A stretch of DNA of 64,000 nucleotides from Prostheceraeus crozeri. Lineage: Eukaryota > Platyhelminthes > Polycladida > Euryleptidae. The stretch covers positions 99,038 to 163,037 of the forward strand of contig CAJQUW010011301.1 in the NCBI GenBank assembly GCA_907163375.1. The letters run 5' to 3'. This document shows, piece by piece, positions 2,484-36,430 of the stretch. The notes beneath the pieces were generated by a model. That model was not told the DNA's origin, did no database searches, and saw only the letters and a program-made list of their open reading frames with translations. Position 1 is the stretch's first letter, and the number at the start of each line of letters is the position of its first letter. Both the position numbers and the translations under genes were made by a program.

Positions 2484-3330
2484 AATATTATGCCGTCATC
2501 ACGAGATCTTGAAATGAAAATTCAAGTGCAATCAGATGTAATTTTTTCACTGAGATTTTTTATAACTTAAGTGTTTCACATTTCCGGCTTTTCAAATTGA
2601 TCTTTACTCTATTAGAAATTCATGGATCTATTAACCAATGGTTGAACCTTGAGTCAAGATGGTTCTATTGACTACTGAAATAGATCCACGAATTGTGGTC
2701 AGAAGACCCTACGAAAGAAGATTATACGTTTTCTTTGATACAGTATTTTAATAGGAAAACGACAAAATTATTTAGTGAACATTGTCAGATAGTTGTCAGA
2801 TATCATTCAGTTTCATCATGATGTAGAGATTTTAAGATTCGCTGAATGCATAAAGAGATACAGTGCCAATAGGTTTTACCAAAACATTGCAGCTAAAGAA
2901 TCTGACGAGATTTTTCAATAACGACCTGAATTTCAAAAAACTTCATATCATGTGAATGGCTGCATATAGTAGTTTAAATTGGCAGAGCATAAGGGTTGTG
3001 TCTGGTCAGTTGTGGTCGGCAGACTTGAAAGTGTGAAGTTTTGGTCAATTCATTCACCGATACCTATACAGGCGGAACTACGGAATGGAGGAAATTAAGA
3101 TTATTATCATTTAATTAGGCTTGTGTTAAGCTTTCATATGATATATCTTTTCGAATTTCGACAACATTTGGTGCAGTTTCACTCAATTAGGACCTTTACC
3201 TGATTTTGCGCCTACTGTCGCGGTAACAATGCTTATAGCGGTCAAATGCAGACAACAATAACTTCCATCGCATTAAGACTGGCGTTTTCGAGTTTGGGTT
3301 TAAAAGAATGTTGGTGAGTAATGGGCAAAA
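2484..3330. other. Gene-free host DNA left of element L
   Basis: No gene is recognised. A small imperfect inverted repeat of 16 bp lies at 2617-2632 and 2679-2694 (15 of 16 positions pair). The last bases (3324-3330) adjoin the terminal repeat of element L and show no target-site duplication matching the other side at 21408. Confidence 0.5.
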
Positions 3331-3735
3331 GACCGTTCCAGGACACCATAAAATTCAAAAAAATAGTATCTTTAAAAACGACATAAATTCATGAATTTGA
3401 ACCCTTTTTCAGGTTTTTAAGACCTAAATACATGAATTTAGTCCATTCAAAAAGTACCATTTTTTCAAAAAATGGCAATTTTAAAAACGACACAAATTCA
3501 TGAATTTGAACCCTTTTTCAGGTTATGAAGACCTAAATTCATAAATTTGGGCGTTTTTAAAAATACCCAATTTTTCAAATTTTTCAAAGTCTCAAAATTT
3601 GAGAATTACAATTTTCTCGCTTAAATCATGACCGTTCCAGGACACCGAAAATCAGAAAAGTTAAGAATTTCAAATTCATGAATTTTATCCATCTTTTAGG
3701 TTTTTAAAATATAACATGTGACTAATAATATTTCT
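3331..3735. repeat. Left terminal inverted repeat of element L
   Basis: This pairs with about 20846-21407 on the opposite strand. It contains two copies of an iteron starting (at)gaccgttccaggacac, at the very tip (3331) and at 3628. Between them is a partly duplicated block with 'aaattcatgaatttgaaccc' (for example 3386 and 3495). The arms differ in length because the number of iteron units differs (two here, four at the right end). Confidence 0.85.
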
Positions 3736-3741
3736 TTAAAA

Positions 3742-4456
3742 ATGGAAGAAACAAAAATGGAAGAAACCGCAAGAATATATCCTTCGTTATCATATGAACG
3801 TAGTTCTACTTTAATGGACATTGAAAAGATTAACATTGAAAAAATGAATAAAGAAAAACACAAAGATAGAGTTAGGTATATGAAAGATAAGGAATCTCAA
3901 TTATTATTAAGATTAGAGCATTATAAAAAAATAAGAAAGAGATAGACTAAAGTTAAGAATGTAACACAAGGAATTGGCATATTCTTAACAATAAGTTTAG
4001 GTGCTTTAACAATTGTTATATCTTCAGGTGTTTTAGTAATTCCAGTAGTTGCTACAGCTTTAACAGGTACGGGTGTTTTTGCATCTTCACTTGTTACAAT
4101 GTTAGATAAATCTTTAATAACTAAGAAACGAAAATCATTAAAAACTAAGCATTTACATATTAAAGAAGTCTATGATAAACTACATTACTACTTTCAAAGA
4201 GTATGTGATGATAATGTTATTACGTTAGATGAGATTGAAAAATTTGATCAAATAGCTAATGAAGTAAATCAAATATCATTTCATTTAAAGACCGAAAAAG
4301 TTGATGATAAGAATAAACAGGGTGGCAAAAATTTCTAGTGATGGTAAAACTTTTACTGGTGGTAAAATTTCTAATGAAGAAAATGATAAAATTTTTTTAG
4401 AAGAGCTAAAAACTTTAAGCGAAAATTTAAGCAAAACTTTATTAAACAAAACTTAA
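3742..4456 (+). pseudogene. Conserved Polinton membrane protein (broken)
   Basis: Chosen start: ATG at 3742, preceded by a run of A as for most genes here. The N-terminal ~65 residues are charged and helical. Next comes a stretch with two hydrophobic segments (about 3975-4090), then a basic stretch (KKRKSLKTK) and a helical tail. Proteins of this build, with a hydrophobic core followed by a short helical domain, are common in animal Polintons, but I know no function. An in-frame TAG at 3943-3945 separates the N-terminal part from the rest. A frame change near 4318-4335 separates a C-terminal tail ending at 4456. Both lesions are also present in copy R, so they predate the divergence of the two copies or are real gene boundaries. 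Confidence 0.6.
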
Positions 4457-4495
4457 AACGAGAAAACTTTAAACGAGAAAACTTTAAACGAAAAG

Positions 4496-5427
4496 ATGTC
4501 AAACAACAAAGCAATAAAAAAATAATTTGTTCAGTAAAATGTTATTGCTGCATTCCAATGTTACCACAAAATTCAAATATTATATTTTAAAAATGGATAA
4601 AATTAGAGCTGATAATTTTAAAAGAATAAAACAATTAGAAGAGTTAATAAAACAAAGAAATATTATGAAAGAAAATCATCTTCAACATAGAATGATAAAA
4701 GCTGGTATTCAATCTGATATGTTTGAAAAAATGCAGCAAACCGAGCAAGTAAAAACTGATTTTGAAAAAACTATGAAACCATTTAAAACTCTTGAAAAAG
4801 AAAGTACAAATAATGATAAACAAATTGATATAACAGATCCAGAGCACAAAACTATATTAGATGACTATGGATTACTAGAATCAAACATTAATAAGAAATT
4901 ACCAAAATCTATGCAATTTGAACATTCTATTTCATTTATAGATGGAAAAAACAATACCTAGATTTTATCTCGGACAAAAAGAAATATTTCCACAACCTTT
5001 TCGAGGTATAATTTTTTCACCAGATAAATCTCCTTTTAATTTAGATAGAAATTTTGTTAATCTTTTAAGAGGAGCAGATTTAAATAATTATGCTGTAGAA
5101 GATCTCATAAAATATAAAGCTATGTTAGACAGAGTTGGTGCAGTAAAATCTCTTAGACGTTATAAACAATTAGAAAATTTATTATCAACGGGAGTTAAAG
5201 AAGGGAAAGGCTTATCTGAAAAACAGAAAACAGAAACAGAAACAACCATATTTTTACCAGATGATCCACAAGAATTACTAAATAGATTAAATATTTTAAT
5301 ATCTGCGATAAAAGAAGGTCATAATTCTAGTTTCAATGAAATTCATGCTATATTGAAAAGACTGTTAGAAAAGAAGATTCTAAATGAAGAGGATTATAAA
5401 AGTGTAGCTGAAATAAGTTGTTTCTAA
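4496..5427 (+). pseudogene. Unknown ~300-aa Polinton protein (frameshifted)
   Basis: I do not recognise the family. The N-terminal half is lysine- and glutamate-rich and probably coiled coil. The C-terminal half contains PRFYLGQKEIFPQPFRGIIF and a helical region including LKRLLEKKILNEEDYKSVAEI. It sits directly upstream of the minor capsid gene, so a structural or assembly role is possible but inferred. Copy L carries an extra A in the run at about 4516-4523, which disconnects the ATG at 4496, and another in the run at about 4946-4951, which splits the body. Copy R is intact at both places and is instead broken elsewhere, so comparing the copies shows one original reading frame. A tandem ~20-bp unit just upstream (4456-4495) is present once more here than in R. 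Confidence 0.65.
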
Positions 5428-5506
5428 TTTTTATCTATGATTTTTATCTATGATTTTCATCTACGATTTTTATCTATAATATTTATTCAAAAGTTTTAAC
5501 TAAAAA

Positions 5507-6294
5507 ATGTGTTCAGCAGATTTAGACAAAATTAATAATCATTTAGAAAATCTAACAGAGATTTTGGGTTCATCAAAATTTAGTACGACGTTAAAAATTA
5601 TAACAACTACTTCATCACACACTTGTAATTTAGAACCCATTCTACATTTGGAACAAAATAAAAATTATCAAATTGCATTGACTAGTTTCTCTACATTTAA
5701 CACTATTCAAAACGTTATCAAAGATGTGAATGATCAATTTAGATATTCTACTGATAAAGCAAAACATGGAAAATACTAACTTTTCTTCCTGGTTCTTACG
5801 AAGTTGAATCAATATCAAATGAAATTAAGAGACATTTAGGTATACCATTTAAAGATAAGAAACAATTACATTTTGCAGTTGAACCGGCAGTTAATAAATT
5901 TTCTCTTACTTTAGACGAAAATCATCAAGTTGATTTTAATCATGATAGATCATTGTCAAAGCTATTAGGATTTAATAAACAAACTTATAGTCAAGGTTAT
6001 CATTTAGGTGAGAAGATTCCAAAAATAACTGAAATAAATTCAATTGTTGTACATTGTGACATTATTGAAGGAGGATATATAAATGGTAAATTATCAAATT
6101 TAATATTCAGTTTTCCAGCTTTTACTGTACCCATTGGTTATAGACTAAATGTAATTCCACAAACATTAATATATTTTCCTATTACAAGAAAAACTATTAA
6201 CAACATTGGCATTAGAATCACTGATGAGAAAGGACAAGAAATAAATTTTGGAGGTGAAGAGATTATGATAGATCTTTTGGTTCGGGAGGTATAA
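5507..6294 (+). pseudogene. Minor (penton) capsid protein, frameshifted copy
   Basis: This is the Polinton minor capsid protein, a single-jelly-roll penton subunit that would occupy the vertices. The supporting wording is in the second half: INSIVVHCDIIEGGYINGK, then SFPAFTVPIGY, then a run ending with FGGEEIMIDLLV, a pattern shared by Polinton penton proteins. In this copy one base is missing around 5759-5763 relative to R, so the frame breaks after about 85 codons and the rest resumes in another frame up to 6294. The intact reference is the R gene at 42723-43511. The next gene, the packaging ATPase, follows after 86 bp. Confidence 0.8.
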
Positions 6295-6380
6295 ACTCCC
6301 ACGCGAAGCTAGAGAAGTTAAATTTTCTTCTTCTTCTTTAAAAATAAAAATAAAATAAAAATAAATTTTTTTAAAAAAAA

Positions 6381-7127
6381 ATGAGTGAAGTACCCCCATT
6401 AAATAAAAAGAAACTTAAATTTAATCATCATCCAAATTTATCTAATAAAGTTTTGTCAGTTATTTGCGGAAGATCAGGTTGTGGAAAAACGTATCTATTA
6501 TTTAAAATTTTAACGACTCCAAATTTTTTGGATTATAACAATCTTATAATTTATACAACAACAGCAGAACAACCCGTCTATCAATTTTTAAAATATGGAT
6601 TTGAAAATAATCTTAAAAAAACAGCAATTGCTTCATTATTCAAAGAATATGAAAAATCTGAAGATGAAGAAGAAATAAGTTCGTGGTGTGAAGAAGCAAC
6701 AAAAAATAATCAGTTAGTAGAATCTAATAAAAATAAGCATATAAAGATACAATTAATAGATGATAGTGGTAATATGCAAGATCCTAGTAAACTAGATAAA
6801 ACAATGAAACATTGTGTAATTTTTGATGATTGTGTTAATGATAGAAATCAGTCAGTTCAGAGAAATTATTTCACAAGAGGTAGACATAATAACTGTAGTG
6901 TATTTTATTTAACACAAAGTATGTATTCATTAGACGGAAGTGTTATTAGAAAGAATGCAAATATATTTATACTATTTGAAATAAATGCAAGAAACTTAAG
7001 TGATTTGTTAAGAGATTTATGCGTAAGAAATAAAGATGAATTTAAACAATCGTGTAACAATGCTTGGTCAAAAGATTATGGCTTCATTACAATTAATATT
7101 GATAAAAAATTCATGAAAGAGTTATAG
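6381..7127 (+). CDS. FtsK/HerA-type genome-packaging ATPase
   Basis: This P-loop ATPase of the FtsK-HerA (A32-like) class would pump the element's DNA into capsids. Walker A is GRSGCGKT at about residues 30-37. Walker B is VIFDDC at about residues 145-150, and the later CSVFYLTQS is a typical sensor/Gln motif. The length of 248 aa is normal for Polinton ATPases. It starts at the ATG after a long A run. Near the C-terminus the run of A at about 7106-7111 is one base shorter than in R. This shifts the frame and ends the protein at 7127, about a dozen residues early with an altered tail. The core is intact, so it is the better of the two ATPase copies. Confidence 0.93.
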   Translation: MSEVPPLNKKKLKFNHHPNLSNKVLSVICGRSGCGKTYLLFKILTTPNFLDYNNLIIYTTTAEQPVYQFLKYGFENNLKKTAIASLFKEYEKSEDEEEISSWCEEATKNNQLVESNKNKHIKIQLIDDSGNMQDPSKLDKTMKHCVIFDDCVNDRNQSVQRNYFTRGRHNNCSVFYLTQSMYSLDGSVIRKNANIFILFEINARNLSDLLRDLCVRNKDEFKQSCNNAWSKDYGFITINIDKKFMKEL

Positions 7128-9789
7128 AAAATATTTTCGCGGAGTGATAAAAATATACAAATATAGTGTTATAATATTTTTTTATTCTATGTATATATCA
7201 AATTTGTCTATCTTAGAAATTAGAAAATTAAAAAGGGTCAGTAGTTATTCCATCAGGTAAAATTTTTCTTTTATCATCAAATGGATCTAATGCTAATTTA
7301 TGTTCTTCTTTTAAATACATTTTATGTTTTTTTGAATTAAGTCTATAATTACATGCTGTTTTTATTTCATTATTAAATAATACATTTTTATAATCTTGAA
7401 ATGTTATTTGATTAGCCACTGATGCCTTTGAAATTCCTTTTAATGTTTTATGTGTTTTAATATTATTAGTTGTATCATAACAGTAACATTTAGATTTTAA
7501 AAATATAGCTTCTGTTATGAAATATTCATTTCCTTCTAATTCATCTTTTACTTTACATAAATCAGAAGGATGAATGATATCTTTTTTTTATTAATTTCTT
7601 CATCAAGTGTAGAATTATACGGTATTGTTAATTCTAAGAAAATAGAATCGGTATCTGTAAAGTGTAATTTATAGTTTTTGCCATAAGCAGGTGCTAAATA
7701 ATCATATATAAATCTATACATAAATAGTTTAGCTAATTCTAATATAGTGAATCCTATAAAATTAAACTTATCATGTTTTACGCTGATTCGACGTAAATGT
7801 ACAGCACATAGTTCATCACTAAATCTAGTAGTTCTTTTATATGTAGGTTTCCTTGTTAAATTTTGAAACCTATCTTTATCATAAACTATTTCAATATTTT
7901 GTCTATTACGCACATTTTCTAAAGTCTTACCATAAAATGCATTATTCATTAATTTGAAGAACACGTTTCCAAAATCATCTTTATTTCTTTTAGCTATTTT
8001 ACGTTTTTCAATATTGAACTCTATATAATCTTTTAACCACCTAGATTTTTGATAAAATAGTTTTCGATGTATTTTGGTGAGAATCATTCCATGATCTAAA
8101 TACCAATCTAGCATTCTTCCTTCAACAACATACTTTCCTTTATTGCTTTGTGTTAACATAAGTTTTTTTGTTGGTCTGTATTTCTTAGGAATTATAGATT
8201 TTTGATAATCTGAAAAATCTTCTATATTGGGAATTTTGTTTTCGGGACAGAAAGGAAAATATTTTGTTTTATCTTTTATTTCATCAGGGTATACTAAATC
8301 AACTTCATATATATAACCATGATTATAATTTCCATCATATGTTTTTTGATAATCTAGAATATTACACCATGACATTTCACCTGTTGGTAATTCTTGTATC
8401 ATGCAAGAAGAATATAAGCTATTAAAATCATAATATAACAAATAGTTTTCTCTCATGATTTCATCAACTGCTGTTTGACTATCTTCATTTGATATAAGTC
8501 CTTCTATATTTTGATTAAACAATTTTATAAACTGATCACTTTCTTCTGGAGATAAAGGTTTCATTATTCCATAATCATCAGAATTTACTTTTTTATTGTA
8601 ACACTGTACATAACGATTACCTAAAACTGATGAAACTCCACCTCTAATTCCAGATTCAAAAAATAATAATTTATCATATGTATTTTCTTTATAATGTTTA
8701 AGTTTAACATTCGTATGTTTTAATCCTGCTAACCATGTTAAACCTGGTGTAGAATAACAATAACATGGATCTATTCCGTAATATCCTAAACACATGTCAC
8801 GAAAGTTTTCAAAAAGATCAGCAAGGATTAATACATCTATCTGTAGATATTTCATTGTATAATCATACATTGTTTTACAATTTAACTCTCTCCAATTTTT
8901 TTCAGCTTCTGCATAGTCTTCTTCAGATAATTGTGATTGTTTTAATGTTGATTTAAATTTATTTATTGGAGGAAGTTGTTTTTCTTCCATAATTTTATTC
9001 ACAGAATTAAAATCAGTCTTCGACTGTGAACCACAGGTTTTATCTCCAGTTATATCAGTCTTCGACTGTGAACCACAGGTTAAATATTCATACGGAAATA
9101 TGCCTTTTAAAGGTTTTAAATTATATTTATTTAATATTTTACATTGTTCAGATTTCAAAGTTTTTCCCATAACATCTAATGAATAAGGAGTAAAAAATCT
9201 AAATGCATCTAAAATTCTAATACAACCTAATTGCATTGAAAAATATTCTTCTTCTGTTTTACATAGTACATTTATTTGTTGTTGTTGGAATTTTTCAGAT
9301 GAAAATAAATCTTTCATTACTAGATGGAAATCATATTTAGAACCATTATAGAAATATAGAGGAACAAAGTTATATTTAAATTTATTAGCATTAAGATTAC
9401 AAGAATTATGTTTTGCACCTCTATATAATCCATTTAGATGATCATGATCTTTTACTTTATCAATATATCTACCTCTGCCATTTTTATAATTTTTTGTAAA
9501 TTCTTTTCCACAGTAATAACATTTTGTTTCATTAATAAAATTTAATTTTTCTTTTTCTGTTAATGGCATCATTGGAATATTTGTTTCAAGCAATTGTGAA
9601 AAGCGACCTTGTAATTCTTCTACTTTCTTTGTAAACATTTCTGAACTATCTTCACCATAGTATTGATAATATTCTGATTTAAATAATTTAGGATAATTTG
9701 AATGAATGTACATTCCCCAACATAATGGTTTTTGTTCAAATAAATATTTTTCTTTACTTTGTTCAGCTGCACTTTTTTCATAATTAAAA

Positions 9790-9816
9790 ACCGAAGGTTC
9801 TAGGGCTTGGCCCGTA
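9790..9816 (+). repeat. GC-rich mini-insertion, inverted relative to the gene
   Basis: The sequence around aaggttctagggcttggccc lies in the polymerase gene. It is read in the opposite orientation to its relatives at 9844, 11415 and 12544, but still leaves the frame open. Confidence 0.55.
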
Positions 9817-9843
9817 CCATTTTCAGAATTATAATTTTCAGAA

Positions 9844-9873
9844 TCGGGTGAAGCCCTGGAACTTTCCGTTCGA
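9844..9873 (-). repeat. GC-rich mini-insertion in polymerase gene
   Basis: On the minus strand it contains gttccagggcttcacccga and encodes SSRASPD. It lies 27 bp from the inverted unit at 9790-9816, forming a head-to-head pair in the poorly conserved linker between the second zinc finger/Exo I block and the downstream endonuclease-like motif. Confidence 0.55.
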
Positions 9874-11414
9874 TTTTGTATCATATTAATATTATATGCT
9901 TCAAAATCACAATAAATAGTAAAGGGTACTTTATTTTTAAAATACCATTTATTATATTCTAAATAATCATCTTTAGGAAAAGTATTTTCAACTGCTTCGT
10001 TTTGTTGACAATTCTCCAAATGTCTATTCATTTCTTCTAAAGTTCTAAAACTTGTCATACATTGAAGACAAGGAAAATTTGTATTATCTGAAGTTTTTGT
10101 AAATATAGAAACATCTTTACACAATATAAAATGACCCTGATAATATAATATATTCGCTTGTGCTGGTTGTTTTGTTTGTTTTAATTTTTCAAATTTATCT
10201 TTATATATTTCATGTGTTAAATCAATTTGTCTTTGTAAATCGTTTTCAGTCTGTTGATAATTTTGATTTAATATTTGTAACTGATAACTATATTCTTTAT
10301 CATATTGTTCTTTATATTGTTGTAGACATTTTTTTAAACATTCATTTATTTTTTGATTGGTTTCATTTTCTTCATTATTTTCTTCATTTAATTTTTGAAT
10401 TGTTTCTATCTTATTTTGATATTTATGGCCATATTCTTGTACTAATATTTTTGTTTGTTGTTGATAATCTGTTTTACATTTTTGTAAACTTTCATTTAAA
10501 TTTTGTAATTTTTGTTGATATTCTAAAGATAAAGATGAATATTTGTAATTATAATCATCATTACGTCCTCTATAATTATTATGATTAATCATTATTGGTG
10601 ATAGTGTTTTAACAATTTGAAATTTTTCAGTACATATTATATTTCCTTGGTAAAAAATATTATGATGCATGTAATTTCCTCTATCATTATATACTATTTC
10701 TGATTGACATAAATTTTTATTATTCAAATAAAATTTTTTTGAATCTGGGTAAAGTGGAGTAATTTTACCAATAGAAACATAATTCACATTTAATTCAAAA
10801 ACATTTACTTCTATTAAATTTTTATTCTTTTTATGAAACTTTATTAACCTATTATAATCATATGGAAATTCATCTAAGCCATCAGAGAGATCAAATTCAT
10901 TTATGTATTCTTCTTTATTGTAATGACTTAGTCTTTCTTTGTGATATTCTGCGGGATGTAAATGTGCTATAATACTCCACAGAAAACAATAATCATCTTC
11001 ATTTTTTATGTTGATTATTTGTGGTGAACTGAAAGGCAAAGGAACATAACTACCACCAGTATTATTTTTATATTTATCAATTACTATTTTCTTAGATAGT
11101 ATTTTAACAAATCTCCAACCAGATTCACGTAACTGGGCTTCAATTATACAATTTTCTAATTTAAGTATCATCGATTCAAATATGGGTTGTATATCATTTA
11201 CATTATGAATTTCTTGTGAATTTGTAAAATGTCCTTGTATTATTTCTTCAGGAATTCCATCAGGTCCATTTTTTGTATAAAGTACTTCTAAATTCATATA
11301 ACATTTGAAAGATTTCTTAAATATATTATAAAAGTTTGTTAATACATTATAAAAAGTTTCATCGGTTTCATTATGTTCAACAGATTCATTAATTAAATAT
11401 TTTATATCTGTTAC

Positions 11415-11445
11415 TGGCGAAGCCCTAGAACCTTCGGTTCGTTCC
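11415..11445 (-). repeat. GC-rich mini-insertion near polymerase N-terminus
   Basis: On the minus strand it contains ccgaaggttctagggcttcg and encodes RTEGSRASP in a variable region before the coiled coil. It is followed by extra copies of cggttcgtt. Confidence 0.55.
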
Positions 11446-11906
11446 GCTTCATCGGTTCGTTCAGCTTTATCAAATTCATCAGTATCGCTAAATAAATATC
11501 TTCCATCTGGTAGGGTCTCATCTTCACTATTAAAAACTTTTTTATATTCCGAATGTGAATAATCATCAAACATTTTTTTAACTTTTATATCAGTAGGCAA
11601 TGTTTCTAGATAGTTTTTATAACTATTTCATTTTAATATATTTCCTTCATCAACTCGTTCTACATTTTGTAAATGCAATTTACTATTTAAAAGAGATTGA
11701 TAACTTCTTTTTGTTTGCAACCTTTTTTACATAAGTTACAATAAAACTTGGTATTTTCCATTTTTTTATTTTTTAAAGAAAAAATTTGTGTTTTAATTTT
11801 AGATATAAACATTCTAATATCAAGGACTTGAGTGTTATTTTATATTATTATATATTTCACGTTCCTAAGTTATTTTATTTTCTTTATCACATTAAGTTTT
11901 ATCATA

Positions 11907-13304
11907 TTAAGTTTCATCATATAACGTTTTATCAAAAGATAATTTATATTTATTTTCACTAACTATTGATTCTTCATCATCATCATCAATTGATTCTTCA
12001 TCATCATCATAAATTGTTTCTTCAACATCATAAATTACACTTTTTGGGATTGGATACCATTCTCTTATTGGAATATCTAACTCTAAATTACATTTTTTAT
12101 CTGATAATAATCTAATAGAGAAAAATATTGGTCTTTGATCTCTTTTGGAAAATTTAATAACACCACCATAATCTGAATCACTTTTAGTTTTTATTAAAGA
12201 TGATAAAATTTTAAATTGATTAGATGTAAATCCTAATTTAAATTTTGTAGACCCGACACATAGTTGTCGAACAGTATCTTCAACTATACCATCATTATTA
12301 TTTTCAATTGTAAGAAAATGAAATTTAGATAAATTTTGATTATATGTAGTATTAATATCATGTACATCAGTATGAGATATAAATTTTTCTTCACTTAAAT
12401 TTTTATAATTACCAATCTTTTTATAATCTTTGTTACCATCTACACCTTTTTCAGATGTTTCAGAATCATCGTCTATGTTATCATCATCTATATTATTATC
12501 ATCTATATTATTATCATCATTATTATCATAAGATTCTTTAAGATCGGGCAAAGCCCTAGAACCTTCGGTTCGTTTATTATGATTATGGACATTGTTAATA
12601 GTATAAGGTGTTGTCCACATACAAATTTTCTCTTGTTGAGCTAAACCATTTATATAAGATTTTAATAAATTAATATTTAAATTTGAATATAATCCTATAT
12701 ATGTATCATCATCATATCTTTGGGGCATTTCTAATGTTTCTTGTTTATAAATTGTATCTCTATAATATACTTTACATAATAATTCTTCGTTATGTTTTTT
12801 ACTCTCGATATGAATGTTATATTGATTTTGTTCATCAACAAATAATCTAATTTTTTCTTTCGAAAAAGATTTTAATTTTTTAACTAATTCTTTAATATTG
12901 ATATAATTGATAATTTTATTTTCTATCCACTCAGTATTACTAATCGGTAAAACTGCTCTAATGAATCCGTAAACATTATTATGTCCTATTATAACCATAT
13001 TTTCTTTATTTAATTCCACATAAGCTACATCATTATATTTGCTTACAATATCCATAAATTTAATAAATGGATCACCTGGAAATAAACAATAATTAGTTTC
13101 TATAGAAGGTAAACCTTTAGTCTGTTCTCTAAATATTTCGGCTTGTAATTGAAATAAAATATTAACATCTATACATGGATTTGTAATAGTATTATTATTA
13201 TTATTATTATCAAAACATTTATTTTCAAATCCCGTTGATCTCGTCGAATAAGAAGAACAGGATGATGCGGACGAATATAATTTTTTTCAATTTGGATTTT
13301 CCAT
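11907..13304 (-). CDS. Unknown acidic minus-strand protein with an early in-frame stop
   Basis: I do not recognise this family. One frame is open from the ATG at 13304 to 11907 (465 codons) except for a TGA at codon 6 (13287-13289). The next in-frame ATG is at 13055 and would give 382 aa. The strongly readable sequence between 13286 and 13055 (for example LFQLQAEIFREQTKGLPSIE) argues that the upstream part is coding. The middle is a low-complexity Asp/Asn stretch holding one of the GC-rich mini-insertions. The two flanking halves look beta-rich; a clamp-like or DNA-binding role is only a guess. It lies between the polymerase slot and the fibre-like gene. The TGA is present in R too. Confidence 0.6.
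12544..12574 (-). repeat. GC-rich mini-insertion in unknown minus-strand gene
   Basis: It contains ccgaaggttctagggctttg on the minus strand and encodes RTEGSRALPDL next to the Asp/Asn-rich tract. R has the same unit at 49182-49211. Confidence 0.6.
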
Positions 13305-13392
13305 TTTTTTTATTTTTATTAGAAAAAATTTTATTTTTTATTTTTATTAGAAAAAATTTTATTTTTATTAGAAAAAATTTTATTTTTTTATT
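13300..13392. repeat. AT-rich tandem repeat between divergent genes
   Basis: About four units related to 'tttttattagaaaaaatttt' separate the divergent starts of the unknown minus-strand gene and the fibre-like gene. Copy R has a different unit number (49950-50046). This is the natural place for a bidirectional promoter, but no motif proves it. Confidence 0.6.
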
Positions 13393-13400
13393 GTTAAAAA

Positions 13401-14288
13401 ATGATGTTACCAAATGTTGGTGGAGGTGCATATATCCCGAATAATCGTGAATTAGAAATAGAGATAGAAAATTATATCATGAAAACTGGAGACGTTTTAT
13501 CTGGTCCATTGCATCTTTCTATTCTTCCGCAACAAAATACAGAGTTGACAAATAAACAGTATGTTGATACACAAATCAATGACTTAAAGGAAAAATATAT
13601 AAACGATGTTTTGGTTCCACTGATGAACGAATTAAAGTTGCTTAAACTTAATGACAAATCATTAAACGAAAAATTATTAAAACTTGATAAAAAGGATAGA
13701 GAGCTACAAGCAGATATAGCAAAACTTTTTAAAAAGATTTCTGAACAATCAAAAATTTTAATATTACTTTCTATAAATTTAAAATCTGCAGTCATTAAAA
13801 ATAAACAGCAGATAGAAATGTTAAAAGAACAATTAGAAGATGAAATAGAAAAACTACCTGAAAGAATTAAAAAAAATTTAAAGCAGTTACAAACTACATT
13901 CCAAAAAAGTGTTGATGAATTGAGTTCTAAAATTACTCAACAAATGAAAAAGATGAATAGAATAATAAATGAAGTAAACTCACTTAATGAAAAAGTTGAT
14001 AAAATGAAAACTCTTAAAATCAATTTAGAAAATGAATTAAAGAAAAATTTACAAGAAAACTCTAAAGAAAATAAAGAACAGTTAGATTCTGTTAAAAGAC
14101 AATTAGATGTTCTTAAAGTTAAGTTAAATGCTCTTAAAACGGCGTTGAAGATTAATCAGCAGAAAATGCAAGTTAATAGAAGAGAAATTAAAGTACATCA
14201 CACGCTGCTTGACGCAATAGATAAAGTGCAACAGGCAATTAATAAAGTTACCTCGAAGTTGTTGTCCATTCACAAACGTAAATCTTAG
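13401..14288 (+). CDS. Fibre-like long coiled-coil protein
   Basis: This is an intact 295-aa frame. Residues 27-56 contain MKTGDVLSGPLHL followed shortly by NTELTNKQYVD. The spacing and wording match the 'GDxxxGPLxL...A..KxYVD' collar repeat of phage tail fibres and other viral attachment fibres. Residues ~57-290 are an almost uninterrupted Lys/Glu/Leu/Asn heptad-rich coiled coil, a plausible trimeric shaft. No C-terminal knob is visible, so the receptor-binding tip may be elsewhere or lost. Within a capsid-bearing Polinton, a vertex spike mounted on the penton is the attractive reading; this is inference. A purely structural tether is the alternative. In R the same gene has a premature stop. 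Confidence 0.6.
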   Translation: MMLPNVGGGAYIPNNRELEIEIENYIMKTGDVLSGPLHLSILPQQNTELTNKQYVDTQINDLKEKYINDVLVPLMNELKLLKLNDKSLNEKLLKLDKKDRELQADIAKLFKKISEQSKILILLSINLKSAVIKNKQQIEMLKEQLEDEIEKLPERIKKNLKQLQTTFQKSVDELSSKITQQMKKMNRIINEVNSLNEKVDKMKTLKINLENELKKNLQENSKENKEQLDSVKRQLDVLKVKLNALKTALKINQQKMQVNRREIKVHHTLLDAIDKVQQAINKVTSKLLSIHKRKS

Positions 14289-14299
14289 CGTAAATATTA

Positions 14300-14366
14300 A
14301 ACGGACCAAAGGTCCTGTGGTTACTAACCAATCGGAGCGAAGCTCCTCGAGGTTTTAGCCGATCGT
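14300..14366. promoter_or_regulatory. GC-rich intergenic hairpins
   Basis: Within AT-rich DNA lie two short perfect stems: ggaccaaaggtcc (starting about 14302) and ggagcgaagctcc (starting about 14333). The reverse complement of the first occurs just after the pX-like gene (17153-17165). A terminator or processing role for the fibre-like transcript is possible. The same block is conserved in R at 50957-51023. Confidence 0.4.
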
Positions 14367-14404
14367 AAATATTTTTTCCCAAAAGTCAAATTTAATCCTA
14401 AAAA

Positions 14405-14956
14405 ATGCCTATAATTTATAAACACAATCTTAAACAATTTGCTTCAAATCAAAGAATTGCTCATGAACCACGTATGAATCCTGTTTATCATTATGATAAT
14501 AGAGAAACAGTTCACACGGAAGGAGCTGGGATCTTCTCTGGTATTGGAAGTATCGTTAACTTAATTAAAAATAATAAAGATTTGATTACATCTGCTGCAA
14601 AGGGAGCAGCTGCTATAGGTAGTACAGCTAGTGCAATATCAAATGCTGTCAAGTCTCAAAACGAATTAAAACAACTAGAAGCTATTCGTAAACTTAGGAA
14701 TGATTCCGAAGAACTAAAAAATTTAAAAAAACTTTCAGAGGAAACAAAAAATAAAATTGCTAACATTGCTGTTGGGGAAACCTTGAGGAGTGGAGCTCCG
14801 TCTGATAGTAAACATAAGAAGAAATCAGGCGTAGCCATAAAACGTTCAATTGAACCTACGGTTCGTTCAATTGAAGAAATAAGAGGAAATGGTGTGAGCA
14901 GCAACCTTCGGTTTAACCAGCAAAGCTGTAGCGGAGCTGGTCTAGCAAAATTCTAA
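14405..14956 (+). CDS. Small Gly/Ala-rich virion-type protein
   Basis: This is a 183-aa open frame with its start after an A run. Residues ~38-80 (GAGIFSGIGSIVNLIKNNKD followed by an Ala/Gly-rich helix) could be membrane-active, like the lytic segment of adenovirus protein VI, but the likeness is of composition and position only. The remainder is a charged helix (residues 80-120) and a low-complexity tail. The tail carries an L-only stretch (14825-14876) with a palindrome-rich insert. R has a different, shorter tail here (175 aa in total). It lies immediately upstream of the major capsid gene, consistent with a capsid-associated role. Confidence 0.5.
   Translation: MPIIYKHNLKQFASNQRIAHEPRMNPVYHYDNRETVHTEGAGIFSGIGSIVNLIKNNKDLITSAAKGAAAIGSTASAISNAVKSQNELKQLEAIRKLRNDSEELKNLKKLSEETKNKIANIAVGETLRSGAPSDSKHKKKSGVAIKRSIEPTVRSIEEIRGNGVSSNLRFNQQSCSGAGLAKF
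14825..14876. repeat. In-frame palindromic insert present only in copy L
   Basis: Relative to R this stretch replaces a short AT-rich segment. It contains nested inverted repeats (cgttcaattgaacc, and gaacctacggttc) and stays in frame. It resembles the other mini-insertions in this element in sitting in a linker and being rich in ggttcg/cgaacc. Confidence 0.45.
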
Positions 14957-14964
14957 AATTATGT

Positions 14965-15063
14965 TTTTTAGTAAAATTTTTTTTAGTAAAATTTTTTTAG
15001 GAAAAATTTTCTTAGCAAAATTTTTTTAGTAAAATTATTTTAGTAAAATTATTTTAGCAGAAT
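14965..15063. repeat. AT-rich tandem repeat upstream of major capsid gene
   Basis: About six units related to 'ttttagtaaaatttt' fill the gap before the capsid gene. R has only two to three units (51583-51618), so the array changes length. It may contain the capsid promoter. Confidence 0.6.
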
Positions 15064-15111
15064 TTTTTCTGTGTGTGAGAAAAACAAAAAGTCAAATTAT
15101 TTTTTATAAAA

Positions 15112-16446
15112 ATGTCTTCGCTTATCGAAAATAAATTTAGATTAGACGATCCTCCGTTCGTCAGTTGCAATCAAAAAAAGAATGACTATATAAGAATTGC
15201 TATGAATCCCGGATCTTCCAGTAGAGTAAATACTGGAGGTGATTTAATTTTTGAAGTTGATAATCAGCAGAGTTATATATATCTACCTGATTCATTTTTA
15301 CACTGTGAATATTCTTTGTATAGTGATGCCAATTTTACAACACCATTACCAGATACCGATAATATTGCATTAGAGAATAATTTTTTTCCAAGACTATTTA
15401 CACAAATGCGTTTAGATGTTGCAACTCAAAATATAGAAACAAAAAGTGATTCTCCAGGTGTAATTGATACAATGCTTAAGTTTGTAATAATTGGTGAAAA
15501 TAATAAAAAGTATGAAATCGAAGGCTGGTTTCCTGATACTAATGATGGTATAATTGTTGATGACTTAACTCACGCTGGAACGGATGCAGCAGGAATTGCG
15601 AAAGATGTAGAAAATATTGCAAAACATTTAAATAAAACAAACAATAGTGCATATAAAGAAAGACGTGAATTTAACAAGAAAAGTAAACAGACAGTTAATT
15701 GGTCATTGTCTTCATTATTCGGATATTTAGATTATGACAAAATATCATATCAATTAAAATTTAAATTATTAATTCATCGTACAGCAAATAATAAATTAAT
15801 CTTTTTTGGTAAGACTGGAAAAAAAGCATATTTAAAAATTGATAGACTTGAATGGTGGATTAAGCATATTACTCCTAGTTTAGAGATTGAAACAGCTATT
15901 GCAAAAAGATTAAATACTAACAAACCAATTCCAGTAAATTTTCTAAAGCGGATAGCTAGTTCAGTAACTTTTTCCGAAAAAAGATTTAACTGGCATTTTA
16001 CTAGAACTGCGAATACTCCAAGATATTTATTAATAACTTTTCAAAGAAATAATTCTCCAAGTTTTGATAAGAACAATAATCTCTTCCATATTAATACAAT
16101 TCGAAGTTTACAAGTTTCATTAAATCAAACCCGATATCCAATTGATCCATTAAGATTCGATGATACCAATAATCAATTTATGGAAGGATATGATTCTTAT
16201 CGAAATCTTTGTATAGAATTTGGAGTTGAACCACAATTAACTCCTGGAGATTGGAGACATTTATATCCTGTTTTCTGTTTCGATTTAAGTGCACAATCTG
16301 AAAATATTATCAAGACTGGCTGTGATGTAACAATTAATATTGAAAAAAAAGATTCCACAACTTCATTGATGGCTTATGGTTTATTGCTAGAAGATGTAAA
16401 ATATTCTATTGAAATTCTTAATGGAAAGATGGTAAGGATAAGTTAA
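15112..16446 (+). CDS. Major capsid protein (double-jelly-roll type)
   Basis: This is an intact 444-aa frame. The central region TPSLEIETAIAKRL and, especially, the C-terminal pattern PGDWRHLYPVFCFDLSAQ followed by a strand-rich end are hallmarks of Polinton hexon-like major capsid proteins, which form trimers making up the icosahedral shell. The N-terminus contains a charged strand reading DPPFVSCNQKKNDYIRIAMN. Length is in the usual Polinton range, slightly short. It follows the small Gly/Ala-rich protein and precedes the pX-like protein, as expected for a virion block. The R homologue has an early stop and a frameshift, so this is the intact version. Confidence 0.85.
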   Translation: MSSLIENKFRLDDPPFVSCNQKKNDYIRIAMNPGSSSRVNTGGDLIFEVDNQQSYIYLPDSFLHCEYSLYSDANFTTPLPDTDNIALENNFFPRLFTQMRLDVATQNIETKSDSPGVIDTMLKFVIIGENNKKYEIEGWFPDTNDGIIVDDLTHAGTDAAGIAKDVENIAKHLNKTNNSAYKERREFNKKSKQTVNWSLSSLFGYLDYDKISYQLKFKLLIHRTANNKLIFFGKTGKKAYLKIDRLEWWIKHITPSLEIETAIAKRLNTNKPIPVNFLKRIASSVTFSEKRFNWHFTRTANTPRYLLITFQRNNSPSFDKNNNLFHINTIRSLQVSLNQTRYPIDPLRFDDTNNQFMEGYDSYRNLCIEFGVEPQLTPGDWRHLYPVFCFDLSAQSENIIKTGCDVTINIEKKDSTTSLMAYGLLLEDVKYSIEILNGKMVRIS

Positions 16447-16615
16447 TTAAATTTTTTTCATAACTAGAATAGATTAAAATTTTTTGGTAACTTGAAATTT
16501 TTTAATAACTAGAATAGATTAAAATTTTTTGGTAACTTAAAATTTTTTGGTAACTTGAAATTTTTTCATAACTAGAATAGATTAAAATTTTTCCTAACTT
16601 AAAATTTTTTTATTA
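16446..16615. repeat. AT-rich tandem repeat downstream of major capsid gene
   Basis: Units related to 'ataactagaatagattaaaa' and 'ttttttggtaacttaaaa' alternate here. R carries a longer version (53008-53250). These could be transcription termination or promoter sequences; only the length variation is directly visible. Confidence 0.6.
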
Positions 16616-16618
16616 AAA

Positions 16619-17143
16619 ATGTCGCAAGCGAAAAGTAATAATAATAAAACTGTTGAATTAAAATAAGGTAATATTGTTGACAAAAATACCCCTAAAACTA
16701 TTACGATTAATAAAAAAAAGTACTACATAAGTAAACCAATGATAGAGAATATTCAATTACAAGAGGAAAAGAATGGCGGGATTCTCCCATTAATTCCACT
16801 AATAATAGGTGGCATAGCAGCTGCAGGAAGTGTTGCAGGCGGGACAGCTGGTATTGTCCAAGCAGTAAATAAAAATATATCAGAGAAGGCAGCATTAGAA
16901 GAACAAAAACGTCATAACAGAGAGTTAGAGAAAGTTGCTAGGGGTGAAGGGACATCGGAGATGTCTTCCAGGGCTTCGCCCGAAGGAAAAGGAGCAGTAG
17001 ATAATTTTATTAGTAGATTAAAATTAGTTGATGAAGGAAAACGAGTTCTTAAAAATATTCTCCACAATGTTGATGATTTAATTGAAATTAAAGAAACTAA
17101 AGATGGTTCTGGAATATACCTAAGTCCTAGTATGATTCGGTAA
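16619..17143 (+). CDS. pX-like small hydrophobic virion protein, early in-frame stop
   Basis: Starting from the ATG at 16619 the frame is open apart from TAA at codon 16 (16664-16666). The usable downstream ATG is 16739 (134 aa). Residues 15-45 of that form are GILPLIPLIIGGIAAAGSVA and onward, a Gly/Ala/Ile-rich segment like adenovirus pX or other membrane-active virion peptides. It contains IIGG|I, which fits the (M/I/L)XGG-X cleavage rule of adenain-type proteases. A helical charged C-terminus follows. Relative to R this copy has a 14-residue in-frame GC-rich insertion (16948-16996). The TAA is shared with R. The pX label is inference from composition and position. Confidence 0.55.
16948..16996 (+). 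repeat. GC-rich mini-insertion present only in copy L
   Basis: The sequence gacatcggagatgtc (a 6-bp stem) is followed by ttccagggcttcgcccgaag, encoding SSRASPE. R has an uninterrupted, 42-nt-shorter sequence at the same place (53579-53595). This is the clearest presence/absence case, and the length difference keeps the frame. Confidence 0.75.
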
Positions 17144-17196
17144 TAACCTCAGGACCTTTGGTCCGATCCGGTAAAACATTTATTTTATCTTTTAAA

Positions 17197-18507
17197 ATGA
17201 ATTCTACAAATTCCGAAAATTTAATTAAATTAAAAATTGTTAATTTAGATTTATTGAAATACCTTTTAAACAAAAATAAAAACTCAAACTGTCAGCATAT
17301 TGGAGGTGACATACAAAAAACATTAGAAAACTTTCCTGGATTTATTTGGAGTAAATATTCGAAAGAAAAACATCTTCCTGGTCATTCATATACCGGTCCA
17401 GGAACTCGATTAGATATAAGACTAGATGAGAATAATAATCCGAAACCAGGTGAAGAACCGATAAATAGAGTAGATGCCGCAGCTTACAGGCATGATTTAG
17501 CTTATCGAAATCATGATCTAAGTTCTCGTCATGCAGCTGATAAGAAGAAGATTCAAGAATTAGATAGTATTCAGAATCCTACATTTAGAGAAAAAATTGA
17601 AAGAATGTTTGTTAAAAAAGCTTTACAAGCTAAAATATTATTCGGTCAGGGTTTAAATGAAACTAATAACTCTGAGAGCAACGCTCGAACCTACGCGTCC
17701 GAAATGTCGAATGACCCAAGCCGCTACGCGTCTGAAATCCACAAGGAATATAGAAGGCCTAAATATTTATTGAAAGTAAAAGTATTTAATAAAGATGATA
17801 TTTGGAGTGCTGATCTTATTCATATGCCGAATGAAAAAGATTATAAATACGCAATGACCGTTATAGATTTATATACACGATACGCTTGGGTAAAGCCTTT
17901 AAAAAATAAAAGTGGTCTATCAGTTAAATATGCGTTTGTAGAAATCTTTAAAGAAAGTAATAGATAGCCAAGGAAATTGTTTGTTGATAAAGGATCGGAA
18001 TTTTATAACCGAAATGTTCAGCCACCATTTGAAACTGTTTATTCAACTGAAAATGCAGGGAAGGCCGTAGTAATAGAAAGATTCAATCGGACGTTAAAAA
18101 ATAAATTATTCAAGAAATTTACTGAGCAAAGAAATCAGAAATGGTTGAAGATATTACCAGGAATTGTAGAAGAGTACAATAATAAAGTTCATTCTGGTAT
18201 TGAAGAAACTCCAAAGAATGCTTCTGACGACCCTGATTTAGTACGAAAGAAAATATTCGAGAATAATAATTTGAATGAGAGTAATCCGAAGAAACTTAAG
18301 CCGAAATTTAAAATTGGAGATAGAGTTAGAATATTTAAATATAAGAATAAATTTGAAAAAGGCTTTGTTGGCTATTGGACTAAAGAAATATTTGAAGTTT
18401 GCAAAATAAATCAAACTTATCCGATTACTTATGAAATTAAAGATTTAGATAATGAGGATATCAGAGGCCGTTTTTATCAAAATGAATTACAGAAAAGAGA
18501 GCTTTAG
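17197..18507 (+). pseudogene. PLA2-integrase fusion, nonsense-interrupted copy
   Basis: Chosen start: ATG at 17197, although the frame is open back to about 17158. The N-terminal domain resembles the phospholipase A2 of parvovirus VP1: LPGHSYTGPGT is the calcium loop, and AAAYRHDLAY holds the catalytic His-Asp pair. A linker with LFGQ|G fits the adenain cleavage rule (M/I/L)XGX-G. The rest is a retroviral-type (rve) integrase: first Asp in IWSADLI, second in FVDKGSEF, Glu in VIERFNR, then an SH3-like C-terminal domain (KFKIGDRVRIF). A TAG at 17965-17967 cuts the gene between the first and second catalytic Asp. R has a sense codon there. The second-Asp-to-Glu spacing is 29 residues, shorter than the usual ~35. 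Confidence 0.9.
17672..17745. repeat. GC-rich linker segment inside PLA2-integrase gene
   Basis: A GC-rich stretch in otherwise AT-rich coding sequence encodes the linker just before the integrase domain. It includes the near-repeats 'ctacgcgtccgaaatg' and 'ctacgcgtctgaaatc'. It is conserved in R (54267-54340). It looks like an older relative of the in-frame mini-insertions. Confidence 0.4.
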
Positions 18508-18518
18508 CTTCGCTTGAG

Positions 18519-18971
18519 TTATAGATTGTTTAACTCTAACATAATATCTAGAAATGGTACTCCTTTTTGTAATTTGTACAAAACGTATAAACATAATTGT
18601 CCACAATAGGTAGTGCCTGGTGTTTGAATTTGAAACGTATTGTATGTTCCCGTTCCAAGTAATTCTTTTACTTCATTTGTAGGGGGCAAACCGTATGAAT
18701 CAAAATAATAGTTCTGCTGATGATTTTTAACGCCTGCTGACCAATGTACACCTTTTTCATCTGACGTATGAAGATTTGTTATGAAATTTACAGTTTGAAC
18801 TTTGTTCCGGGAACTGAAGGTTCCTGTTGGCTTATTTTTTAGGAATTGTAATTCGTCTCTCATTAGAACATGAAAATTCTTTATTCCTAATCGATTAGCG
18901 ATTTTCTTTAGGTCGAAATTCGTTGTCGTTTGTGTTCCATATAATTTCAAAAACTCATTTATGTTACTCAT
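18519..18971 (-). CDS. Adenain-type cysteine protease
   Basis: This is an intact 150-aa frame, convergent with the integrase gene. The catalytic triad is visible in the adenain order: His76 in KGVHWSAG, Asp91 in YYFDSYG and Cys123 in TYCGQLCLYVL. The enzyme would mature virion precursors after (M/I/L)XGG-X or (M/I/L)XGX-G motifs. Such motifs occur in the pX-like protein and in the PLA2-integrase linker of this element. At 150 aa it is shorter than adenovirus protease (about 200 aa) but complete through the Cys motif. L and R proteins are nearly identical, and both copies are open. Confidence 0.94.
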   Translation of the reverse strand: MSNINEFLKLYGTQTTTNFDLKKIANRLGIKNFHVLMRDELQFLKNKPTGTFSSRNKVQTVNFITNLHTSDEKGVHWSAGVKNHQQNYYFDSYGLPPTNEVKELLGTGTYNTFQIQTPGTTYCGQLCLYVLYKLQKGVPFLDIMLELNNL

Positions 18972-19008
18972 TTTATAATAAAAAAATTTCTTAAGGGACC
19001 CCTAGAAG

Positions 19009-19182
19009 TCAGAAGGGGGGGTATTGATTTAAAACTGTTCTCTAATGATGTCTTTCCTTACTACTTAGTCAGAAGGGGCATTGATTTAAAACATTTTTAT
19101 AATGATGACTTTCCTTACTACTTGGGGGGGTATTGATTTAAAACTGTTCTCTAATGATGTCTTTCCTTACTACTTATTCGAT
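19009..19182. repeat. Three-unit tandem repeat after the protease gene
   Basis: Three ~58-bp units share 'gtattgatttaaaactgttc' (the middle one degenerate), then ctttccttactactt, joined by G-rich spacers. The array is conserved in R (55613-55778) with small differences in the G runs. It separates the protease gene from a protease remnant, so it may mark the duplication event. Confidence 0.7.
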
Positions 19183-19277
19183 TTTGAAATGATTTAATTT
19201 AATCTAAATTTAAACGTTACATTGTTGCATTGTATTAGTAGAGTTAGTGTTTCGCACATCTTTTATCAATAGTAATT

Positions 19278-19396
19278 CATTACTCATCAATATGTGAAAA
19301 TTCTTTATTCCCAATTGCTTAGCAATCTCATTTAAATCGAAATTTGATGTGGTTTTGTTTGCCGTATATTTTTAGAAAGTCTCTGATGTTTCTCAT
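19278..19396 (-). pseudogene. Remnant of a second adenain-type protease gene
   Basis: Read from the ATG at 19396 on the minus strand, this begins MRNIRDFLKIYG and, after a one-base slip, continues with matches to NFDLNEIAKQLGIKNFHILM. It aligns with the first ~40 residues of the intact protease (MSNINEFLKLYG ... IANRLGIKNFHVLM). Only the N-terminal quarter is present, without any catalytic residue. Divergence from the intact gene is far greater than L-R divergence, and R carries the same fragment. The duplication is therefore old. Confidence 0.75.
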
Positions 19397-19524
19397 TTTT
19401 ATAGACGATAAAATGTTTCTATTATATTCCCGTAAATGAGAAATTAAAAACAACACATGGATATTTCAATTTGGTTACATCCACTTTGCATACATTCAAT
19501 TTGAATACATTGAAATACATGTAA

Positions 19525-19740
19525 ATTTGTCCACGCTGTGGACGCGTTCTAATTGGTTGAAACACTCTATTGCATTTACATGTGCAACAGGAAATAACAT
19601 TGCATATAAAACAGGAAATAGCATTGCATATAAAACAGACGGATTCAAGTTTTCTAAACAATAGGATTTCTGTCCACGGGTGGACAAGGTTTCATTGGTT
19701 GAAACACTCTATTGTATTTACATTGCATATAAAACAGAGG
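19525..19740 (+). promoter_or_regulatory. Repeated CCAAT/TATA-like region
   Basis: Two similar blocks each hold a gtccac...gtggac inverted repeat (19530 and 19672 regions), then attggttgaaacactctatt (a reversed CCAAT box; about 19552 and 19695), then one to three copies of gcatataaaacag (TATA-like; about 19603, 19626 and 19725). The spacing is what a pair of RNA polymerase II promoters would show. No plus-strand gene is recognised downstream, so its target is unknown. The whole block is conserved in R (56128-56341). Confidence 0.35.
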
Positions 19741-20073
19741 GGTTTCAAGAATGATAAATTTTCTTCACAGCGCGTCTAATGTCAACGCGTTGATTTGATT
19801 AGTTGAATGGCGCAGTATTTTAGCTGAATGGCGCACCATTATTCAAGAGAATATAATGAAATGGCATAGGTCTAACAATAAAAATAAAGTGTCTTGCGGC
19901 CGTATCGCAATAACAATAGCGGAGTTTAACATCCAAATTCCATTGAATATGTCAGCGCGGTATTATCGCTAAATGACGCACCATTGTTTGGGAGAAGAAT
20001 GGAATCATTTGGAATGACACATAATTGCTTTACACAATGAAGTCAATCTTCCGATAACAATAGGTCGTGACTT

Positions 20074-20427
20074 TTAAAGTACAAGAGAAACAGACACCCA
20101 ACAAAGCGTAGGAAATTTGTCTGCTAATTTACCTAATTTCATAACAAATGAAACTTCGGTGCGTGAATAATTGATATGATTTTGCTTCAAGAGACTATAA
20201 AAATAAGACTTGTCATTATCACAAACAGAGAGCAGATAGTGCTTACCGATAAAAATTTTACACATAACACTGAGTGAATTGTTTCTTCTTTCATGCAACA
20301 AGAATTTGTGTAAGTTTACAATTGTATTATTCTCTCCACCATTTGGCTCTATGAAATCACTCAAAGTATCTGTAAATTCATGCCTCTCAAGATATATTCC
20401 TCTTGAATTCCTCCCGTAATTTTTTCA
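20074..20427 (-). CDS. Hypothetical ORF in the accessory region
   Basis: A frame open from about 20424 to 20074 encodes around 117 residues with natural-looking composition (for example NLHKFLLHERRNNSLSVMCK). It lacks an upstream ATG; the first in-frame Met is internal. A short overlapping frame from the ATG at 20479 encodes 30 charged residues. The R copy encodes the same 96 C-terminal residues, and one difference I checked is synonymous (tgt/tgc for Cys at about 20220). No family is recognised. It may be the end of a captured gene or simply chance. Confidence 0.3.
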
Positions 20428-20845
20428 TCCTCCCTGGCAACGATTGTTTTCTTCTATCTTCAAATTGATCTTGTCTCATTTTGAGAAATATATGACGAGA
20501 GCGTTTTGACACAACCTTCACTGACAAGAAACACTGTTAAATTAAATAAGTCTTCAGCACAATTGTTTGAAATAGCCATATCGATTATTGTTGTTGTCTA
20601 TTATTTCACGGCATTGCAGCCGGAGTAGGATTTGCTGGTTATATATTCCACGTCTTACAAATGTCTAAGTGGGTGTAGCAGCTGTTTGTTCTTTCATACA
20701 TTGTTTCCTTTCAAATGTTTGAGTTGGAGGACACAGCTCCTTACACTGAAATGCCTTTTATTCATAAATGCGAGAAGCAGATGTTCTCTACAATTGAATG
20801 ACAATTGTAAAAGTACCTAAACTTATTGTTAAGAATATGTCAATT

Positions 20846-35949: not shown

Positions 35950-36430
35950 TCAACCAACCAGCTCTTGTTTCCTGTTCAGACCTGGATTCGTAGTCCTAGT
36001 GTACCTAGCTTCAGTAATGCGGCTTTCAATAGGTGAATTGTGCTTGTTAAGAATCATGAGGTTGAAATCTCTAATAGTCATGTTACGCCGATGAAAATAT
36101 TTCGCATGTTCAGAAAGGGCACTGTTATTATTACCAGCTTTTAAACTACTTGTATGATCTTTTAGACATCCAAGAAAAGGACGACTAGTATGACCGATGT
36201 ACTCTTGTTGACAGAATTGGCAAGTAAATTGATACACTACGTGACGATCATCACATGCATAGTTAATACCATTAAGACTATTGCATAAGTCACAATTTTT
36301 GTACTTACGAGACCTATTTTTATTCAGGTTACTCACTGTTTTGTTAGGTTTGCTAACTAAGGTTACCGGTAGATCATGTTTATTAATAAGGGAATTAATT
36401 TTTTTAATTAATATTTCAACCTCATGATTC
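35950..36430 (-). pseudogene. Penelope-like element GIY-YIG endonuclease fragment
   Basis: The 128-aa frame from 36336 has a Cys pair (NCDLCNS) followed by VVYQFTCQFCQQEYIGHTSR, then HTSSLKAGNNNSALSEHAKY. This is the GIY-YIG nuclease that ends Penelope-like retroelement polyproteins. In-frame homology continues upstream to about 36430. No reverse transcriptase is seen beyond that, so it is a 5'-truncated insertion, the common form for these elements. It ends with a stop at 35950. Confidence 0.75.

Follow-up and report, generated by a model that had tools for sequence, protein, structure and literature searches.

Two unrelated polymerase cassettes in one slot of Polintons in the flatworm Prostheceraeus crozeri, and their association with terminal tips

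Two Polintons and their polymerase cassettes

Within a contig of the polyclad flatworm Prostheceraeus crozeri (CAJQUW010011301.1, assembly GCA_907163375.1), the 64,000-nucleotide stretch from position 99,038 to 163,037 of the forward strand, here called the window, contains two integrated virus-like elements in the same orientation, L and R, with a gap of 19 kb between them (Table 1). Both are Polintons (Mavericks), identified as such by a protein-primed-type family B polymerase, an rve integrase, a double jelly-roll capsid protein, an A32/FtsK-type ATPase, and terminal inverted repeats with 6-bp duplications. An earlier note, made from the sequence of the window, had claimed that the two elements were near-identical outside a single unrelated tract, and a self-BLASTN of the window bore this out (92-97%, gaps counted). 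L 3590-7148 and R 40850-44364 were 96.6% identical; the alignment of L 11891-21150 to R 48604-57767 consisted of two segments that overlap, with identities of 92.2% and 95.6% (gaps counted). The identity in 250-bp blocks of the backbone ranged from 90 to 100% over aligned bases and was mostly at least 94%. Homology broke off at the stop codon of the ATPase gene and restarted at the end of a minus-strand gene. The alignment that had been proposed for fixing these breakpoints placed the non-homologous tracts, i.e., the polymerase cassettes, at the positions given in Table 1, and the DNA of the two cassettes was, as predicted, without meaningful similarity (best match 28 bp, E 0.001).

The polymerase of the L cassette lies on the minus strand and has the zinc fingers and endonuclease VII-like domain ascribed to it in the earlier note, but not an unbroken frame: this changes near 7581, and homology continues to 7231 in another frame. 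The Endonuclease_7 match (E 9e-4) was below the curated cut-off of that family. The endonuclease VII-like part had been described as an insert; it proved widespread in the L-type clade, with the domain matched in 26 of the 34 L-type proteins scanned vs 0 of 35 R-type proteins, and is thus not peculiar to the window copy. The description of the R cassette was accurate, in that its plus-strand polymerase has the SLYP motif, the Pfam scan gave no endonuclease match in it, and the small open reading frame (ORF) has 109 codons when counted from its ATG. There was no polymerase among the PDB sequence matches for either protein, and PDB profile comparison produced zinc fingers for the L polymerase and nothing for that of R. 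The polymerase of phage phi29 was the best fold match of both; in phi29, the terminal protein is a separate protein. The N-termini of both polymerase families contain conserved Cys-containing stretches, with no OTU-like assignment, and the fold look-ups barely cover these N-terminal parts.

Table 1. Positions of the elements, cassettes, tips and genes in the window
Feature	Coordinates	Strand	Remarks
Polinton L, L-type polymerase	3317-21407	+	left end AGTAATGGGCAAAAGACC; right end without the final 14 bp found in other copies
L-type terminal tip	3317-3526	+	outer part of left terminal repeat; DNA fold z -2.9
Packaging ATPase of L	6381-7127	+	Pox_A32-like, E 1.7e-5, above cut-off; left border gene
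L polymerase cassette	7149-11890		non-homologous to R cassette
L-type family B polymerase	7548-11600	-	PF03175 E 1.4e-10; SLYS; zinc finger and Endonuclease VII-like domain
Minus-strand gene of L	11907-13055	-	right border gene; no Pfam match
Double jelly-roll major capsid protein of L	15112-16446	+	PF21738 E 3.6e-18
Polinton R, R-type polymerase	40568-58057	+	ends AGTAGT...ACTACT
R-type terminal tip	40568-40702	+	strong hairpin; DNA fold z -5.5
ATPase ORF of R	43598-44194	+	198 aa; DNA homology to L gene extends to 44364
R polymerase cassette	44365-48603		non-homologous to L cassette
R cassette small ORF	44416-44769	+	109 aa from ATG, 117 from TTG; no Pfam match
R-type family B polymerase	44795-48328	+	PF03175 E 1.4e-31; SLYP; open along full length
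Minus-strand gene of R	48620-49698	-	as ORFs 48620-49372 and 49375-49698
Double jelly-roll major capsid protein of R	51877-53007		PF21738 E 1.4e-17
rve integrase ORF of R	53753-55108	+	PF00665 E 1.7e-9

That the two polymerases are not close sisters, a point on which the earlier note had staked its reading, was supported by a tree built by a quick method from a selection of 20, 18 and 12 rows among the relatives listed, together with the two window proteins. In it, L and R fell in separate deep clades, each forming one clade with a value of 100 in the Shimodaira-Hasegawa-like approximate likelihood ratio test, on stems of 1.65 and 0.61. In a structure look-up, the ten best matches of the L polymerase shared 16-22% identity with it and were mostly polymerases of bidnaviruses/densoviruses and adintoviruses, whereas the ten best of the R polymerase shared 12-14%; bidnavirus and adintovirus proteins were nearer to L than to R. 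Bidnaviruses carry an Alpha polymerase according to the available text of a preprint on adintoviruses (PMC11071296), and the matches of L would fit the Alpha class, while those of R pointed to no class. Searches of viral contigs with single proteins and with the capsid alignment gave no relatives, while the L-type polymerase alignment gave one match, the 17.4-kb IMG/VR contig L001, and the R-type alignment two weak ones. When judged by eye, none of the contigs hit by the capsid protein agreed in length with a contig listed for the polymerases. On L001, an L-type polymerase adjoins an rve integrase, there is no match to the window capsid protein, and a 477-aa ORF is presumably capsid-like. Another relative of the L polymerase, P0065 (1208 aa), has a double jelly-roll capsid domain at residues 79-263 (PF21738, E 2.3e-20), either a fusion or a join.

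Copies of both cassettes and recombination through their flanks

Both polymerases are present as populations of copies in the assembly that contains the window (2.05 Gb, 14,165 contigs). The L-type polymerase had at least 34 genomic matches (94-100% identity; 12 of 34 without an internal stop) and the R-type at least 39 (98-100% identity; 38 of 39 without one), although both the copy counts and the apparent intactness are biased because the listed matches were ranked by polymerase score. The cassette lay between the ATPase gene and the minus-strand gene at 8/8 L-type and 20/20 R-type loci examined, the window pair included. With near-identical elements separated by only 19 kb, misassembly is a risk, and a chimeric assembly, in which a polymerase cassette had been joined into the wrong element, would produce a pair such as L and R. 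However, all 28 loci, nearly all of them on different contigs, hold one or other cassette in the same slot, so the arrangement is very unlikely to be an accident of assembly, an explanation to which we give next to no probability. An R-type element with R tips on G000:C5338 (L103, L113, L118 and L119) is about 4 kb short between its capsid gene and the start of its polymerase.

The diversity of the R-type polymerase was 0.65% in 20 copies vs 2.3-3.2% in the flanks. A recent sweep of the R cassette was considered as a candidate and dropped, as copies picked by their tips (10 of 12 left-tip loci) had a diversity of 2.4% in 44870-45240 vs 0.75% in 19 copies picked by polymerase; the low value arose because the loci had been picked by polymerase score.

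Trees of the two flanks from the 28 copies did not separate the L-type from the R-type. In the left-flank tree, window R grouped with window L (95/88), within a wider grouping that was weak (50/93), and in the right-flank tree window R and L021 were in a group with L-type copies (91/95). Informative sites were those with a 75% majority difference between L and R panels. The R panel excluded window R, L021 and L026, whose sites were scored later, and L014 was dropped from the site table. The left flank of window R was L-like at 4/4 informative sites, the last of them at 7022. In its right flank as far as L-coordinate 12395, 3/5 single-nucleotide polymorphisms and a deletion of 66 bp were R-like; each of the 23 columns in 12473-12984 was L-like. 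One crossover is thereby placed inside the minus-strand gene, at L coordinates 12395-12473 (R ~49018-49096), and a second somewhere from 7022 to the cassette edge. L021 had the same pattern as window R, and L018, L022 and L023 were mosaic in a different way. Judged by these sites, window R is a recombinant, in which an R-type cassette with some of its flank has entered an L-like backbone, and polymerase exchange among these elements is recurrent. The clean borders at gene ends, from which the earlier note had argued for modular replacement, do mark the limits of non-homology, but the crossovers of window R lie within the adjoining shared genes.

These tracts also bear on the idea that the cassette is itself mobile and spreads by homing, with the endonuclease VII-like domain of the L polymerase driving the movement. 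The idea draws some plausibility from the frequency of that domain in L-type proteins and from the discussion of homing endonuclease inserts in Polinton polymerases in the available text of PMC11071308. However, the domain was matched in none of the R-type proteins scanned, yet it was an R cassette that entered an L-like backbone, and the R tract ends within shared sequence, as ordinary recombination would give. Homing is therefore an improbable driver of the exchange.

Terminal tips and their association with the polymerase

The cassettes are not the only parts in which the two types differ. The outermost part of the terminal repeat is unrelated between them, beginning with AGTAATGGGCAAAAGACC in L and with AGTAGTATATAGTGTG in R. 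The 6-bp target duplications of R-type elements were perfect in 9/9 elements with both flanks readable; that of window R is AACGAA, at 40562-40567 and 58058-58063. Those of L-type elements with L tips at both ends were perfect in 5/7, with one at 5/6 and none for window L. Other L-type copies retain the terminal 14 bp that is missing at the right end of window L.

When 21 L-type and 21 R-type elements were probed starting from the polymerase, every left end that was found had the tip of its own type: an L tip in 18/18 L-type and an R tip in 20/20 R-type elements, five of the R tips being incomplete at the edge of the examined stretch, with no left end found in 3/21 and 1/21, respectively. At the right ends, L tips were present in seven of the eight found among ten L-type elements probed (2/10 not found), and R tips in 11/11 R-type elements, three of which rest on partial matches. 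Starting instead from R tips (20 of 40 listed tips drawn, 19 scored) led to 17 R-type and two L-type cassettes, and starting from L tips (seven of 12 resolved) led to six L-type and one R-type, so that the polymerase matched the tip in 23 of the 26 resolved tip-first elements. Fisher p values for the match were 3e-11 (left), 1.6e-4 (right) and 8e-4 (tip-first). The modular replacement of the replicase that the earlier note had proposed is supported by the polymerase tree, the many copies with the same flanks and the mapped recombinants, with the amendment that the swap also takes in the terminal tips.

A perfect linkage of tip and polymerase was entertained and discarded, since four elements break what is nonetheless a strong association. 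Two of the four, C8294 and C3877, combine an L-type cassette with a left L tip, a right R tip and perfect duplications (GATGCC and TGCGAT), and one end each was seen of C3337, an L-type element with an R right tip, and of C7390, an R-type element with an L left tip. In the stretches examined, no left end could be located for C3337, C7278 or C9260, and no right end for C7390. C8294 and C3877 look like single-crossover products captured at integration, and the perfect duplications at these hybrid-ended insertions suggest that a shared integrase accepts either tip, both of which start AGTA.

Differentiation of the backbone by polymerase type, expressed as the fixation index (Fst), was analysed in five blocks (C4620 and C12815 had no core locus). 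It was 0.04 just inside the left tip, a value reached in 124/1000 permutations and not significant. It reached 0.31 in the ATPase gene and 0.32 in each of the two blocks of the minus-strand gene (0/1000 permutations as high in all three), and 0.23 in the capsid gene (1/1000). In the same elements the type difference was complete at the cassette and at the left tip. Simple linkage cannot easily explain a tie between left tip and polymerase while the sequence adjacent to the tip mixes.

It is probable, in our view, that a replication module, the polymerase with its cognate end, moves through a shared capsid and integrase backbone and is kept together by selection for a working pair. L and R would be members of one recombining, adintovirus-like Polinton population in a eukaryotic genome, with capsid, ATPase and integrase common to both, and each carrying a protein-primed-type polymerase from one of two lines that diverged anciently. 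Exchange of the cassette would take place via ordinary homologous recombination in the conserved neighbour genes. Because the flanks are homologous, any cassette in the polymerase slot could be replaced, and because a protein-primed polymerase starts at DNA ends, the recombinants that persist would mostly retain their own tip with their polymerase, with the backbone between tip and polymerase partly reshuffled. In Polintons, the terminal protein is reported to form an N-terminal portion of the polymerase (PMC11071308) and would hence be exchanged along with it. With the ends being the origins in protein-primed replication, the outcome of recurrent exchange would depend on whether polymerase and end match, and the tips would serve as type-specific origins. 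There is a precedent in phages phi29 and Nf, in which initiation required that polymerase and terminal-protein DNA be of one phage and the main signal came from the parental terminal protein (PMC4974454). As to whether the polymerase (with its terminal-protein part) and the tips form a co-adapted module held by epistasis across kilobases of recombining backbone, with unlike-ended single-crossover hybrids still able to integrate, we consider the chances evenly balanced.

Several points weigh against selection for a matched polymerase and end. Because the major origin signal of phi29 is the parental terminal protein (PMC4974454), sequence-specific tips are not a given, and the terminal-protein domains of the L and R polymerases are putative. 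The four mismatched elements exist, two of them with perfect duplications, and the Fisher values overstate independence because the copies share ancestry. In addition, four of the five backbone blocks are partly differentiated (Fst 0.23-0.32), i.e., mixing between the types is incomplete, and leftover lineage structure may contribute to the association. That differentiation and the mismatched elements would also be expected after hybridisation of two old lineages that differed in polymerase and ends, with leftover ancestry, along with copying between the terminal repeats of one element, producing the association without any selection. However, the block between left tip and polymerase has an Fst of only 0.04, yet the left tips matched in 38/38 of those found from the polymerase, and R tips are retained by recombinants whose flanks are L-like (window R, L021/L050). 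Hybridisation without selection is accordingly a rather unlikely account of the whole.

Further features and comparison with known systems

The R ATPase ORF matched Pox_A32 at E 2.3e-4, slightly under the cut-off. The R ATPase stop codon leads into a tandem repeat of about three 13-bp units (44356-44395) that L does not have. The integrase region of L consists of two ORFs (17158-17967 and 17977-18507). In the R integrase ORF, a phospholipase A2-like domain (PF08398, E 1.3e-8) lies N-terminal to the rve domain, and a Pfam scan at E up to 0.1 listed only these two and no chromodomain. The ORF at 18519-18971 had no Pfam match, and by its motif it may resemble adenain/Ulp1-type cysteine proteases. 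Part of this protease-like minus-strand ORF (18834-18974) has a 75% identical second copy at 19258-19399, and R has an equivalent duplication (55435-55575 and 55858-56000). The host DNA between the elements includes a large inverted repeat (28496-29213, with arms of 220 nucleotides that are 95% complementary), and the window also contains a weak GIY-YIG ORF (35950-36336) and a DDE transposase fragment (61300-61731).

In Polintons, adenoviruses, bidnaviruses and virophages, evolution has been shaped by replicase replacement, which is usually inferred from deep trees; here it is visible at the scale of a population, crossovers included. If tip and polymerase are co-selected, the integrated copies constitute a data set on the ends that a protein-primed polymerase accepts, and co-selection could account for the differing end motifs among close Polintons. 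If the replicon is indeed detachable, one host genome records dozens or more natural tests of polymerase-origin specificity. In the titles and abstract openings given by searches of the Polinton, Maverick and adintovirus literature, no report of matched polymerases and ends or of hybrid-ended insertions was found, although an absence of this kind carries little weight.

Polymerase mixing among adintoviruses is already known. The available text of the adintovirus preprint (PMC11071296) defines Alpha and Beta clades of polymerase and hexon and reports AB and BA pairings, and these classes are variously paired (AB, BA, AA, BB) in animal viruses with an rve integrase. The mixing there is between deep clades of separate isolates, whereas in this single genome a near-identical backbone surrounds the two polymerases, and both the crossovers and the kinds of end have been mapped. 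The vertebrate Polintons/Mavericks (PMC8097293) resemble ours in their protein-primed polymerase, integrase, ATPase, capsid, terminal repeats and 6-bp duplications, and their known (AGT)2//(ACT)2 end motif is that of the R tip; a conserved architecture is described for them, and the available text does not mention two polymerase types per slot. Caudoviricetes phages (PMC11348598) likewise have had the replicative polymerase replaced in an otherwise conserved virus, but these are tailed phages, in which the question of a terminal origin probably arises differently. A further parallel is phi29, the best fold match of both polymerases, in which initiation is type-specific with respect to Nf, with the difference that it is a phage whose main origin signal is the parental terminal protein (PMC4974454).
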